Shown here one piece after another: positions 49,212 to 57,012 of a DNA stretch of 64,000 bases. The position numbers and the translations under genes are program-made. The DNA comes from Candidatus Gastranaerophilales bacterium. GTDB lineage: Bacteria > Cyanobacteriota > Vampirovibrionia > Gastranaerophilales > Gastranaerophilaceae. Numbering within the stretch: the first letter of the stretch is position 1; every line of letters starts with the position of its first letter. The stretch spans positions 1 to 64,000 of the forward strand of contig JAFQHZ010000033.1 of the NCBI GenBank assembly GCA_017415185.1. The letters are read 5' to 3'. The notes beneath the pieces were generated by a model that did no database searches, was not told the DNA's origin, and saw nothing but the letters and a program-made list of their open reading frames with translations.

Positions 49212-52200
49212 ATGGCTTTAATTAACAACAATTGTGTAAATGATGGTGGAACTGGTAGTGGATTAATTCCTCAAAAACCGCTTGAAATCGAAGTTTATGG
49301 AGCTGATACCCAAGCTATAATTAATGATATTGTTTCAGGAACATATTCTGATACTACTCAGGTAAGTAATGCTCTTGGAACATTGGCTGCTTATGGTCAA
49401 ATTGATGAATTAAATACGCAACTTGAAGAAGCAGGGATTGATTTGGTTGAAATGTATGGCGGCGAAGACACTGACGCTGGGCTTTTGGTTAAAACAATGC
49501 TTGATACATCAGACGACGAACAAATTGAAGATTTTGATGCGCAAGATTTGGCTGATAGTTTGTTTGAAGCAATGGATGGATTAGCTTATACAGACGAAGC
49601 TCAATTGATTCAAATTTTAGGAAATGCTTCTTATTCTCCTGAACAAATTCAAGAAATTTGTGATGCTTATAAAACAAAATATGGCTCTGAACTTTCAAGC
49701 GTTATTTCGGGCGACACTTCAGGCCAATTTAACACTCTTTTAAACGCGAGACTTTTAGGCGCAAATGATTATATAGAAGATACAATTAGGGATGATATAG
49801 AATTTAATCGTGATAATCCTAATAATGTTCAAGCTGGTGATGCTGAAACCACCACAGCTTCAGCTTCGTTTGGGGAAGTTGAAATCACAAAAATTTACAA
49901 TGCAAACGGCGACGTTATAGGGCAGGTTGCCGTAAATTATGATTTTGGCGGGAATATTATTTCTAAAACTACAAGCAATTATGCTTATGATGAAAATGGG
50001 AATTTAAGAGAACAGGTTGATGTTTTGAGTGATAAAAATGGAAATGAGCTTTCAACAACTGTGAATCGCTTGGATGAAAATCAAAATATTGTTCAGCAAT
50101 ATATGAGATATCAAAATGAAGATGGAACTGTTCAGGAAAGAAGTACAGAGTATTTGTATAATGATAAGGCTAATCCAAATTTAACTACTTGCATGAGAGA
50201 GACTGATGTGCTTTTTGATCAGAATGGAAATGTAATATACAAAACAGAAAAGAACGATGATGTTATGCAGTCGCTAAAGGATGATTATAGCAATTATATA
50301 GTCTCCGAAAACGATTATATTGAAATTAGTAAGTGCAAGACTCCACAGGAACTTGTTAATTTTTTAAATGAGAAAATTGACAATGGCACAAAAATTGACT
50401 TAAACGAATACACGCAAAATTGGCAAAAAGAGTTTGATGAGCAGGCTTTTAAAATTACAGAGATGAGCGATGAAGCAGTTGCACTTGTTTCTGAAGAAAT
50501 TTTAGCCAAAATTGATTTGATGGCTGAAGATAAGACCCTTTGGGCAAACTTTGTAGAAGGTTGGACGCAAATGGGCTTAACTGCCGAAGATTGGAATGAA
50601 CATGAAAGAAGTAAATTTAGAGACAAGTTGCAAGATGCTGTTAATGATGGAAAATTCGATACTATTAATAGTTTATATAATGAAATTAATGCAAAATTAT
50701 ATCCTGAAGGAAGCCAAGGCTCTTTGATTGATAACATTCGCTCAATGTATTCTGCTCAAGATTATTATGATTCTTTGAATCCTGCAGAAGTGAGTCAACA
50801 AATGTCTATTAGACAAGATTTCGATCCAATTTCGATGAAACCTGAAACTTATGGTGAAATGTTGCTGTGTCAGCTTCAGGAAGTGAAAAATCAATTTGAA
50901 CTTTACAAAGACAACATGGGATTTTTAGATACTTCGATATCATTTATGAATAGACTTTTTGATGTTGGAACCAGTGAAGATGATGTCGAAGCTATTTTTG
51001 CTCAATATGAAAAAGAATTAAAAGAACTCTCAAGTCTTGAAGGTGCTGAATTCTGCGCTTCTTTTAAGGCTTTAACTGGCGATGAGTTTTCAGAGGGCAC
51101 GCTAAGTGAAATCAGTATGGCAGCTCAGATGTGCGCCGATATTGAAAACATGTCAGAAGAAGAACTGTTATTACAGGCTCGAGGTTGGGCAAATATAGGT
51201 GCTTTGAATATTGAAAATGCATATGATCCTGACCCATTTAAAAGAGACGAATATGGCAATATTTTATATGAAATTAACGAAGAAGAAAGCACCGAAGATT
51301 GTATTATATATAAACATGATGAACATGGTAATATGATTCCTATTCGAAAAACTGAAGAAGAAAGGATTGATTATAACAAGTTAAAGACTGTATTAAAAGA
51401 AACTTATATTGAAGTTACCCATGGATTGGATGAGAAGTGTAATGATCCAAATGGTATTGTTGCGGGTGCATCAAATTCTTCTCCAGGTAATGCGCTTGAT
51501 GATTATAAGGATACCGTAGAAGAACAAAGAGAATTTGCAATTGACCTTGCGAGAACTGCTCTTGTTGTTGCTATGGCCCCAAGTGGAGCAATAGGCGCAG
51601 GCTTGGGATTGAGTTTTTGGGGTGCAGTAGGTTTAAGTGGTTTTACTGGCGCAGCAGTTGAAGCAATTGGACATGCATTTAATTCGAATGCAATTGGTGA
51701 CCAAAAAGCAGAACCGCACGAAGTTGTTTCTGATATTGTTGCAGGTTTTACTTCTTCGATATTCCAAGCGATGGGTTCGGATATGGCCAAGGGTATAACC
51801 AATACAAAAGCACTTAAGTTTATGGCTGAAAAATTTAATGTAAGTACAGATGTAATAAAAAATGTTATAGAAAAAGTAGGCTTAAAGGGCGTTTCTTCTA
51901 ATGTTATAAAATCATTAGTTAAGGATTCTTGTGAATATTTGTTTAATCCTAATTTAACACAAGAAGAAAAGGATAATTATATTCATGAAATGATAGAAAA
52001 TGCGAAAAATGCCGCAGATAAGGGTGCAATCATTGGTATTTTATTGATTGCCTCTGATTTTCTTGGGACTAAAACAAAAGGTTGGGCTTCTGAAACATTG
52101 AATAATGGCAGAGATGACGGTTGGATGGATGATGTTGCAAAGATAATTAAATCAACTTATGATTCTACGGCAAGAACCGTTGGCGGGTATCTGGCAGACG

Positions 52201-52277
52201 GCGAATATGATCCGGCAAAAATTACTCAAACAACTTGGAAAGAATTTGCGAAAAATTATTTAAAAGCACCAAAATAG
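49212..52277 (+). CDS. 1021-residue protein with YD-like repeats and a glycine-zipper segment
   Basis: The ATG at 49212 (MALINNNCVND) is chosen with AGGTG upstream; a GTG at 49200 would add four residues. There is no signal peptide. Residues about 205-350 carry YD/RHS-like units (VNYDFGGNIISKTTSNYAYD, ENGNLREQVDVLSDKNGNEL, FDQNGNVIYKTEKND), and another lies near 680. A hydrophobic Gly/Ala-rich stretch (about 785-825, SGAIGAGLGLSFWGAVGLSG) precedes a helical C-terminal region. The design recalls large secreted or toxin-like proteins, but no catalytic domain is recognised. It ends 22 bases inside the convergent subtilase gene. Confidence 0.6.
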   Translation: MALINNNCVNDGGTGSGLIPQKPLEIEVYGADTQAIINDIVSGTYSDTTQVSNALGTLAAYGQIDELNTQLEEAGIDLVEMYGGEDTDAGLLVKTMLDTSDDEQIEDFDAQDLADSLFEAMDGLAYTDEAQLIQILGNASYSPEQIQEICDAYKTKYGSELSSVISGDTSGQFNTLLNARLLGANDYIEDTIRDDIEFNRDNPNNVQAGDAETTTASASFGEVEITKIYNANGDVIGQVAVNYDFGGNIISKTTSNYAYDENGNLREQVDVLSDKNGNELSTTVNRLDENQNIVQQYMRYQNEDGTVQERSTEYLYNDKANPNLTTCMRETDVLFDQNGNVIYKTEKNDDVMQSLKDDYSNYIVSENDYIEISKCKTPQELVNFLNEKIDNGTKIDLNEYTQNWQKEFDEQAFKITEMSDEAVALVSEEILAKIDLMAEDKTLWANFVEGWTQMGLTAEDWNEHERSKFRDKLQDAVNDGKFDTINSLYNEINAKLYPEGSQGSLIDNIRSMYSAQDYYDSLNPAEVSQQMSIRQDFDPISMKPETYGEMLLCQLQEVKNQFELYKDNMGFLDTSISFMNRLFDVGTSEDDVEAIFAQYEKELKELSSLEGAEFCASFKALTGDEFSEGTLSEISMAAQMCADIENMSEEELLLQARGWANIGALNIENAYDPDPFKRDEYGNILYEINEEESTEDCIIYKHDEHGNMIPIRKTEEERIDYNKLKTVLKETYIEVTHGLDEKCNDPNGIVAGASNSSPGNALDDYKDTVEEQREFAIDLARTALVVAMAPSGAIGAGLGLSFWGAVGLSGFTGAAVEAIGHAFNSNAIGDQKAEPHEVVSDIVAGFTSSIFQAMGSDMAKGITNTKALKFMAEKFNVSTDVIKNVIEKVGLKGVSSNVIKSLVKDSCEYLFNPNLTQEEKDNYIHEMIENAKNAADKGAIIGILLIASDFLGTKTKGWASETLNNGRDDGWMDDVAKIIKSTYDSTARTVGGYLADGEYDPAKITQTTWKEFAKNYLKAPK

Positions 52278-54053: not shown

Positions 54054-54250
54054 AATCAAGCGAGTTTAGCCCGACTGGGCTTAACGAGCGCAGATTCAGG
54101 CATGAGGATGTGAAGCACGACGACGGCTGCGTTGAGCAGGCGGCGAGTGCGGACACTGGACTAAGAAATCAAGCGAGTTTAGCCCGACTGGGCTTAACGA
54201 GCGCAGATTCAGGCATGAGGATGTGAAGCACGACGACGGCTGCGTTGAGC
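54054..54250. repeat. Tandem GC-rich element: two identical 84-bp copies, period 113
   Basis: Copy 1 at 54054-54137 and copy 2 at 54167-54250 are identical over 84 bases. They are separated by 29 bases (AGGCGGCGAGTGCGGACAC...) that continue the homology seen in the 11119-11310 element. Internal inverted repeats include TAGCCCGACTGGGCTTA. GC content is far above the neighbouring genes. There is no ORF. It lies between two convergent genes, so it is not a promoter region. Confidence 0.85.
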
Positions 54251-54272: not shown

Positions 54273-56909
54273 TTATCTTCTTATCGGGCAAATAATGTTG
54301 CTAAAATTTTCATATAAGAAATCATAAGCTTTATCTAGCCCGTCTTGACCTGCGTCTAAGTATAATGCGCCAATAAAAGCTTCAAATAAATCGGCGTCAA
54401 ATTTTGAATTCGTGCTTTTTCTTTCTGTTGCAAGATATTCTCTTAAATTCATTTGTTTTGATATTCTTGCAAGAGAATCGTTTTTAGAAAAATCGATATA
54501 TCTATTGGAAATTTCGCCTTTTGAAGCGTTTTTATATCTTTCAATTAACATTCTATTAACGCAATAATTTAAAACGGCATCGCCAACATATTCTAAAAGT
54601 TGATAATTTTCATGATGTGAAATTGCAATGTCTTGCGATTTTTTATCCAAAAATGCTCTATTCAATAAAGAATAATTGTTAAATTCAAGTCCCCAATCGT
54701 CACCAAGTTCTTGAAGCAGTTCTAGTCTTTCACCTTGCGCTTTTCTTTTGTCTTTTGGTTTTGGAGTGTCTTTTATCTCGTTTTCAAAAATATCGCCATT
54801 TCTGATTATTTTTTGAATAGTTTTATATGCTTTATTTCTGCCTTCTTCTGCGTTATTTGCTGTAAATTCAGGACAAATCAATCTATTTTGATAATATATT
54901 TTTACGCTAAATTTTGAATCTTCGTCTTGAATTTCAATATACAACTCTTTTGGATTATAACCGGCACGTTTAAAGTTTTCATAAAACTCTTCAATATGAT
55001 TTTTTGGTGCTTTTGGCATTGTTGAAATAACAATAGGCTGAGCGTGTTTTTTCATAAAATCATTAAAGTTTTTATGCCCTTGTTTTCCTCCTTCTTCAAT
55101 GATTGCGCCTAAAAGTGCGTGGAAATATCTACTATGAGCTTTTTTTGCTGTTGCTCCAACGTTTGTAAACAAACCACCATCAAATAAAGTTGCCAAAATC
55201 GCAGCCTCTTGTTTTTTAACCCCAGCGGAAATAATTTGCGTAAAATCACCTTCTGTTTTATATGGATAATGTTTAAATAAAAGTGTTTTTAAATATAAAT
55301 TATATGCTTGAAGTCCAATTGTTTCATATTTTTGGAATTTGTCTTGTGATAAAGAATTAATATCAAAAACATATTCAAGGGTTTGAGGTTTCAATTTTAA
55401 ATTATATTGTTTCAAAGTATCATAAACTAATTTTTTCTTTGGTTTGTTGCTGAATTTCCAAGCGACGGGCGCTGCTTCATAAACAGGATTTTTTGAATCA
55501 TTCATAGAAAGAATCATTTCTTTTGGCAATTGTCCTAAAACAATCTTTCCTTGCGGTTTTGCAAAAGTTTGTGCTTGCTCTGTTGTGTTGAATTCTTCTA
55601 AAATTTTGTCAACAAAAATTTGAGCATTTTTTAAACCATCTTCCTTGCCATCGATAAAAATAGCGCCCAAAAGACCTTTAAACATGCTCACATGTTTTCT
55701 TATTCCTAAATCTTCGTCGATATTCATTGCAAAGTTTTCTTTTAATTTCAATTCTTTTGAAATTTTTGCAATATTTATATGATGAACAAAATTTTCCGCT
55801 TCTTTTTCAAGTTCCTTGTCTGTTAAATTCGGGTTTTTATTTGCTAAATTTTGCTTAGTGCAATAAATTAATACTTCATGACCAATGAACTCAAGGGGTT
55901 TGCAAGTTTTTGTGTGCGGAATAACGCTATGATCTTTCATTGTCCCAAACAAAAATGCTTGATGAAATAAATTAACATCATTTATTTTGATTCCAAAAGG
56001 ATTCATTAATTCATGCAGTGCTTGCGCTCTTTTTTCGTTTGGATGTTTGAAAATATCAAATCTTGAAGTGCCTTTTGCGCTTTTTAAAATGCTTTGGTCG
56101 TTTTTTAGCGCAGCAATCGCTCTTTCAATGCATTCTTCTCGTGCAGTTTTAGAATTATATCTGTCTATTTTTCTTGCTATAATTACATTTTTATAATAAA
56201 CAGAATAAGTTTTTCTATCTTTTAGCATTATTGTTTCAACATAAACATCGCCCCAATTGAGTCCTAGTTTGTCTGTTGCTTTTTTTAATTTTTCAAATGG
56301 ATTGTTTTTGACTTTAATATCCTCTGGAATTATCAAAGGCAAAACATGTTTATTCATGAAAGCGCCGAGATTTTCTTGTTCTTTGTCTGATACGCAAGCA
56401 AGCGCACCTAATAAAGCGAAAAATTCCCTTGATTTTGCGTCGTTTGATAATGTTACGCCTTTTTCTGATAATAAATTTTCATCAAATAAAGTTGTTAAAA
56501 TTCTTGCACCATTGTTTCTTGAATCTAATTCTTGAGCAATTTGTTCTAATTCTTCTTCATATTTTTCTGGAAATTTTTCTTTTAAAGCTTGATACAAATA
56601 AGGTTTATAAAGCTCAATTCCTCTTTTTTCATATTGAGCAAATCTTTCATCAAAAAAATTATTTGGATTTGTTATGTATTCAATCGTTTGAGATTTTAAG
56701 ACCACGCCGTATTCGTTTAATTCTTGTTTTAGAAATTTTTTTCTTGAAGAATTATCGCCCGTGAATAATATTTGGTTTTTTAATGCAATAGCTTCATTTT
56801 TGCTTATTAATTGTCTATCAAAATTTATGTTGTTATTTTGGTTGTTTTCTTTTTTTATAATTCTTTTTTGAAATGGTTTAAAATTTATTGGGGAAATAGT
56901 TAAATTCAT
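54273..56909 (-). CDS. 878-residue multi-module RNase III-like protein
   Basis: The start at 56909 (AAAGGAG five bases before the ATG) gives MNLTISPINFKPFQ. The protein appears to be a duplication of [degenerate RNase III-like A - dsRBD-like - RNase III-like B]. Copy 1: A1 about 70-190, dsRBD about 203-270, B1 about 295-435. Copy 2: A2 about 490-625, dsRBD about 638-702, B2 about 725-870. Only B2 keeps the catalytic set: LLEYVGDAVL (Glu773, Asp777) and DADLFEAFIGALYLD (Asp840, Glu843). In B1 the motifs read LEFIGHEVL and SMFKGLLGAIFID, losing Asp and the final acids. A processing or dsRNA-cutting role is likely; no separate rnc gene is in the window. Confidence 0.72.
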   Translation of the reverse strand: MNLTISPINFKPFQKRIIKKENNQNNNINFDRQLISKNEAIALKNQILFTGDNSSRKKFLKQELNEYGVVLKSQTIEYITNPNNFFDERFAQYEKRGIELYKPYLYQALKEKFPEKYEEELEQIAQELDSRNNGARILTTLFDENLLSEKGVTLSNDAKSREFFALLGALACVSDKEQENLGAFMNKHVLPLIIPEDIKVKNNPFEKLKKATDKLGLNWGDVYVETIMLKDRKTYSVYYKNVIIARKIDRYNSKTAREECIERAIAALKNDQSILKSAKGTSRFDIFKHPNEKRAQALHELMNPFGIKINDVNLFHQAFLFGTMKDHSVIPHTKTCKPLEFIGHEVLIYCTKQNLANKNPNLTDKELEKEAENFVHHINIAKISKELKLKENFAMNIDEDLGIRKHVSMFKGLLGAIFIDGKEDGLKNAQIFVDKILEEFNTTEQAQTFAKPQGKIVLGQLPKEMILSMNDSKNPVYEAAPVAWKFSNKPKKKLVYDTLKQYNLKLKPQTLEYVFDINSLSQDKFQKYETIGLQAYNLYLKTLLFKHYPYKTEGDFTQIISAGVKKQEAAILATLFDGGLFTNVGATAKKAHSRYFHALLGAIIEEGGKQGHKNFNDFMKKHAQPIVISTMPKAPKNHIEEFYENFKRAGYNPKELYIEIQDEDSKFSVKIYYQNRLICPEFTANNAEEGRNKAYKTIQKIIRNGDIFENEIKDTPKPKDKRKAQGERLELLQELGDDWGLEFNNYSLLNRAFLDKKSQDIAISHHENYQLLEYVGDAVLNYCVNRMLIERYKNASKGEISNRYIDFSKNDSLARISKQMNLREYLATERKSTNSKFDADLFEAFIGALYLDAGQDGLDKAYDFLYENFSNIICPIRR

Positions 56910-57012
56910 TTTGTCTCCTTTGCTAGTATTTAAAAACATCTGAAGAAAATTTTTATGGCTTTAATTTTGTTTTGTAACGAAATGTAACAAAAATAACAAG
57001 CTCTGAAATTAG

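Follow-up and report, generated by a model that had tools for sequence, protein, structure and literature searches.

RNase III domains work only as pairs, and in Dicer and Drosha both RNase III domains are live, each cutting one strand. Pairs in which a single partner is live, engineered as well as natural, reportedly exist too (Conrad 2002 and Meng 2008, as cited in PMC9508840). In a 2021 review, class I and class II enzymes, all bacterial RNases III included, have a single domain per monomer, with two domains being found in Drosha and Dicer (PMC8708148). One domain per monomer is also how bacterial RNases III are described elsewhere (PMC10989914), and a further review finds Dicer orthologues in neither bacteria nor archaea (PMC5303251). 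A different type of example is provided by trypanosomes, where heterodimeric RNases III in which a single subunit is live have been modelled as cutting one strand (PMC9508840).

The gene considered here, from a gut Gastranaerophilales genome, encodes four RNase III-like modules in a single chain. The placement in that order comes from an rnc that is identical over 242 residues between a MAG of this name (L125) and G115 (L038), which belongs to the same family as the window. The initial annotation, made from the letters of the DNA, knew of no bacterial description of an internal pseudo-dimer with dead partners, and a full-text search of open-licence papers found no bacterial RNase III with two domains in one chain, reviews giving one per monomer. 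The protein is filed as a variant within the RNase III superfamily, and not as a Dicer.

Two fused units in one chain

The open reading frame lies on the minus strand at 54273-56909 of the window (the whole stretch of DNA analysed, 64,000 nucleotides), with the coding sequence at 54276..56909 and the stop codon at 54273-54275. An AAGGAG Shine-Dalgarno-like sequence is immediately 5′ of the ATG at 56909, and the ribosome-binding-like sequence before that ATG, at 56910..56923, reads GCAAAGGAGACAAA. The 878 residues form two fused units, each having a dead RNase III module (A), a dsRBD-like middle domain and a second RNase III module (B). Aligned with each other, the halves (residues 1-450 and 451-878) are 28% identical over 382 residues with E 3e-50, which puts the internal duplication well outside what chance would give, and the early reading of the protein as two copies of an A, dsRBD-like and B series is borne out. 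The landmark pairs listed with it, SQTIEYI/PQTLEYVF, YEKRGIELY/YETIGLQAY and FFALLGAL/YFHALLGAI among them, align between the halves.

All parts are on the minus strand, and catalytic residues are given in E. coli numbering. An N-terminal leader (residues 1-56, 56742..56909; MNLTISPINF...ALKNQILFTG), mostly of low model confidence and common to paralogues and unrelated proteins of the genus, is followed by module A1 (residues 57-202, 56304..56741), an RNase III fold that is dead through D45 to I, D114 to R and E117 to F, as seen from profile comparison, the catalytic table and the model. After dsRBD-like domain 1 (residues 203-290, 56040..56303; profile comparison and model) comes module B1 (residues 291-450, 55560..56039; Pfam, catalytic table and model), an RNase III domain with H, S and K at the same three positions and likewise dead. 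The inter-unit linker (residues 451-491, 55437..55559), of low confidence in the model, leads to module A2 (residues 492-636, 55002..55436; Pfam, profile comparison, catalytic table and model), again a dead RNase III fold, with L, R and H. Then follow dsRBD-like domain 2, modelled as alpha-beta-beta-beta-alpha (residues 637-724, 54738..55001), and module B2 (residues 725-878, 54276..54737), an RNase III domain in which E773, D777, D840 and E843, equivalent to E41, D45, D114 and E117, are intact (Pfam, PDB search, catalytic table and model).

Recognition of the modules at the level of single profiles is uneven. Against Pfam PF00636, B2 scores 68 bits and B1 29 bits, above the cut-off, A2 scores 22 bits, below it, and A1 is under the detection threshold. 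Profile-profile comparison with hhalign reaches further, a profile built from all eight A modules known matching canonical RNase III with 97.5% probability (E 6.5e-12, 139 columns) and the A modules matching the B modules with E 4e-13. For the middle region the match to canonical dsRBDs is weak (29% probability, E 6e-4). A profile of A plus middle matches canonical rnc collinearly through its RNase III and dsRBD parts, with best E 1.2e-16, so that A plus middle is the counterpart of the RNase III-dsRBD of rnc. (An hmmsearch match of that profile to histone PARylation factor 1, E 3.5e-4, is probably due to chance.) A PDB sequence search with the 878-residue protein brought up Drosha and Dicer besides RNases III of bacteria, and it was in B2 that the matching stretches were best.

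Structure prediction points the same way for each module, as had been proposed from the letters. With AlphaFold2, A1, B1, A2 and B2 are helical RNase III-like modules and the middle domains of both units are alpha-beta-beta-beta-alpha (C unit: pLDDT 75.4, pTM 0.46; N unit: pLDDT 73.3, pTM 0.44). Since the A and middle regions were covered in the underlying alignments by two rows only, both from the window, canonical sequences did not dictate the fold in those parts. In Foldseek the C unit has Drosha, DCL1 and Dicer as its best matches, over 366-436 columns, with Aquifex RNase III (2.1 A) next; for the N unit the matches are RNase III domains of bacteria together with RTL4, mL44 and Dicer. Matching the two domains jointly gives an rmsd of about 14 A, and in neither unit model is A packed confidently against B. 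An RNase III fold of the nuclease modules is supported by profile-profile comparison, structure prediction and Foldseek; predicted topology and collinearity suggest a dsRBD fold for the middle domains. RNA binding by the latter is uncertain, given the weakness of the dsRBD profile match and the absence from the middle domains of all eight units of the GPxH loop and KKxA-type helix start through which canonical domains contact RNA.

Catalytic residues, relatives and descent

That only the last module of the window protein retains the E..GD and D..E motifs, as first noted, is correct: E41, D45, D114 and E117 are present in B2 alone, with the small correction that B2 has Q at position 38, which is E in most RNases III. 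The catalytic table extends the pattern to a second species of the genus, represented by genome G146. All eight A modules are without D45 and E117. Module B1 has H45, S114 and K117 in the window gene and A45, G114 and R117 in its G146 orthologue, and each of the six other B modules has kept the full set. The canonical RNase III of the lineage (L001 1321-2082 and the rnc of the family) carries Cys in place of D114, a residue that thus varies even among enzymes presumed to be live.

The window gene has close relatives in its own genome. On contig C20, X1 (462 residues) and X2 (447 residues) have one unit each and lie end to end, with zero spacer between TAA and ATG. A separate short rnc, normal and in a cdsA-rnc-rpe cluster (C12), is also present, together with Mini-III, which rules out replacement of the housekeeping RNase III. 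When 28 genomes of the genus were searched with a four-unit profile, one other species, that of G146, proved to have units, in a fused gene of 888 residues and in two single-unit genes, Y and Z, that are neighbours of each other. There were none in the wider samples, where only canonical-length rnc was otherwise found: 146 genomes of the family (queried with the full protein), 383 of the order, 382 of the class and 386 of the phylum, overlapping and amounting to about 690 distinct genomes. The unit gene family is small and restricted to two of these roughly 690 related genomes. A scan of genome contigs with conserved peptides gave canonical rnc only, the conserved peptides being the catalytic ones.

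A Pfam census of the genus puts the units in the context of other departures from the standard complement. The majority, 23 of 28 genomes, have rnc and Mini-III only (one of these rnc alone). The extras are the units in G000 and G146, a dead RNase III-dsRBD protein also in G146, and one dead RNase III-like protein each in G155 and G156. A 488-residue protein of G163 (L155 5430-6896), in which a live RNase III domain is followed by a dead one and a dsRBD-like end, is possibly an independent two-domain fusion in the same genus. Stand-alone dead RNase III-like proteins of 215-298 residues, bearing the leader described above, occur in three species of the genus (L156 4697-5344, L157 5248-5928 and L158 4031-4927).

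In a maximum likelihood tree the A modules and the B modules each form a clade of their own (100/99 and 98/98, respectively), and the dead B1 module of one species groups with that of the other (99/92). It follows that the unit was assembled once and then multiplied, and that two copies were fused, with B1 dead, before the species split. Orthologous halves are about 32% identical and X2 and Z 57% identical; for the latter pair dN is 0.28 and dS 1.26, and dN is the smaller of the two in each of A, middle and B. Judged by that pair, the unit proteins evolve under purifying selection, their divergence being fast but constrained. An assembly artefact or chance reading frame is ruled out by the orthologous fused gene in G146 and the existence of units as separate genes, and a pseudogene by the lack of stops and frameshifts, by dN below dS and by B1 being dead yet B2 intact in both species.

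Carriage as phage or plasmid cargo was considered and rejected, there being no full-length match to the protein among 50,697 phage and 72,556 plasmid records. The same applies to a defence island, PADLOC having matched neither the 878-residue protein nor the six further window proteins included in the scan; no Rfam family was detected in the window. Just downstream of the gene are two identical 84-nucleotide copies (54054-54137 and 54167-54250) of a sequence with about 11 full or partial copies genome-wide. At 49218-52274 the window has a 1019-residue protein in which an annexin domain is recognised (PF00191, E 3.6e-12), a domain unusual among bacteria. An 834-residue protein at 33875-36376 matches nothing in Pfam and has long repeats of the PPPEETTT and QPAAQPAA types.

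Possible pairing of the one intact module

Because RNase III domains depend on pairing, association of B2 with a dead domain in the same chain, either A2 or B1, would be the likeliest mechanism, and the gene would then encode a single-chain, multi-domain RNase III that cuts one strand. The chances of this are put at slightly less than even. Each unit may be pictured as an rnc-like gene copied in tandem, in which the first, RNase III-dsRBD part (A plus middle) lost catalysis and the second, RNase III part (B) kept it, the unit then being copied to four and two copies fusing into the window gene, whose first B module died too. The resulting processing centre would have one live site and would cut a single strand of structured or duplex RNA, with the dead modules providing the partner for B2 and gripping and positioning the RNA, and with ordinary rnc and Mini-III covering housekeeping. 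A bolder version is held more tentatively, namely that a single-chain pseudo-dimer, acting as a strand-selective RNA nickase, arose in a single genus of gut Gastranaerophilales and arrived by convergence at the combination of dead and live domains used by the trypanosome editing endonucleases. Of the interpretation offered in the initial annotation, the layout of the domains, the duplicated halves and a single intact active site stand; the internal pseudo-dimer is putative, the models giving no confident A-B packing.

The residue at the position of the ball, F42, bears on pairing and can be read in two ways. It is F or Y in seven of eight B modules and K, T, S, N or L across all the A modules, a pattern of loss in A and retention in B that would fit asymmetric pairing. 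Just as well, the loss could be a sign that A forms no dimers. That the B modules retain the aromatic ball residue along with the full catalytic set, and that the models lack confident intramolecular pairing, would also suit a B2:B2 homodimer between chains making ordinary two-strand cuts, with A, the dsRBD-like domains and B1 as N-terminal accessories for targeting or substrate choice. This arrangement is nevertheless considered unlikely: the A modules of all eight units keep RNase III homology, and A is under purifying selection in X2 and Z, suggesting use as a partner, while in the fused gene B1 on the same chain would compete for pairing.

A somewhat more doubtful possibility is a regulatory or structural RNA binder which binds duplex RNA, or pairs with the RNase III of the cell, and has the protection or delivery of RNA as its main task, in the manner of rnc70, maize RNC1 or mL44. 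Three of the four modules are dead in both species, the N unit matches mL44 too in Foldseek, and the K at 117 in B1 is the very change of E. coli rnc70 (E117K), reported to abolish cleavage of dsRNA with binding retained (PMC8708148). Retention by B2 of all four catalytic residues in both species, and by the single-unit paralogues likewise, speaks against it, as does the lack of the canonical RNA-contact residues in the dsRBD-like domains.

The leader is relevant to a last proposal. It is lineage-specific and consists of M[KRN]I(N)xI, some 20-40 low-complexity residues and then [IV]xF[KSCT]G (also written M.I.PI ... KNQI.F.G). Besides the window gene, it is found at L008 6708-8240, L154 3692-5524, 6731-8062 and 9482-12145, L218 5265-8516, L223 1738-4023 and L226 12207-13190. 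That this leader sends all these RNase III-like proteins to a common location outside the cytosol, as exported or envelope-bound RNases acting on foreign RNA, is very improbable, since its presence on the unit proteins, on the dead RNase III-like proteins of relatives and on unrelated coiled-coil, membrane and HNH-type proteins is offset by the absence of a hydrophobic signal peptide and by only modest enrichment outside RNase III genes (Fisher p 0.018).

Comparison with known systems

Reviews treat two RNase III domains per chain as eukaryotic (Drosha, Dicer and RNC1) and the bacterial enzymes as homodimers of one-domain subunits (PMC8708148); here a bacterial lineage has fused them independently, and in several paralogues over two species has silenced some of the modules and kept one. 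Nature here offers a test case for the way in which an RNase III pair turns asymmetric, a step toward Dicer-like enzymes and strand-selective cutting.

With canonical bacterial RNase III (class I, rnc) the protein shares the E41, D45, D114 and E117 of B2 and the RNase III-dsRBD order of A plus middle. The canonical enzyme, however, which is active as a homodimer and makes a staggered cut through both strands, has one RNase III domain and a C-terminal dsRBD in about 230 residues, as against 878 residues with four RNase III modules, three of them dead, and dsRBD-like domains that are internal. Against the NCBIfam equivalog TIGR02191 the score is 155.3 bits, below the cut-off of 166.25.

The likeness to Dicer and Drosha (classes IV and III), whose logic the initial annotation invoked, is partial. 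Two RNase III domains per chain (here two per unit and four in total) are common to both, and these enzymes are the best Foldseek matches for the whole C unit. In Dicer and Drosha, however, both RNase III domains are intact and there are other domains, such as helicase and PAZ in Dicer, and a C-terminal dsRBD. Here there is one live site, the chain ends at B2, and above the Pfam cut-off the protein has RNase III-type families only, with no helicase or PAZ. The order seen in A plus middle, a dead RNase III domain and then a dsRBD, is shared with mL44 and further proteins whose RNase III domain is dead (Foldseek; Pfam RM44), and the difference is that mL44 is a mitoribosome component of a single unit.

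In the kinetoplastid editing pairs (KREN1-3 with KREPB6-8) a dead and a live RNase III domain give a single catalytic site, an arrangement which the residues of the window protein fit. Those pairs differ in being two separate eukaryotic proteins, with zinc fingers and RAM helices, in a large editing complex; the single chain of 878 residues has no zinc-finger Pfam match. Maize RNC1 has two dead RNase III domains in one chain, as in A1-B1 (PMC8708148), and differs in being a chloroplast protein without a live domain. By analogy, the dead-plus-live pair would be closer to the trypanosome editing endonucleases than to Dicer, and the all-dead first unit closer to maize RNC1.
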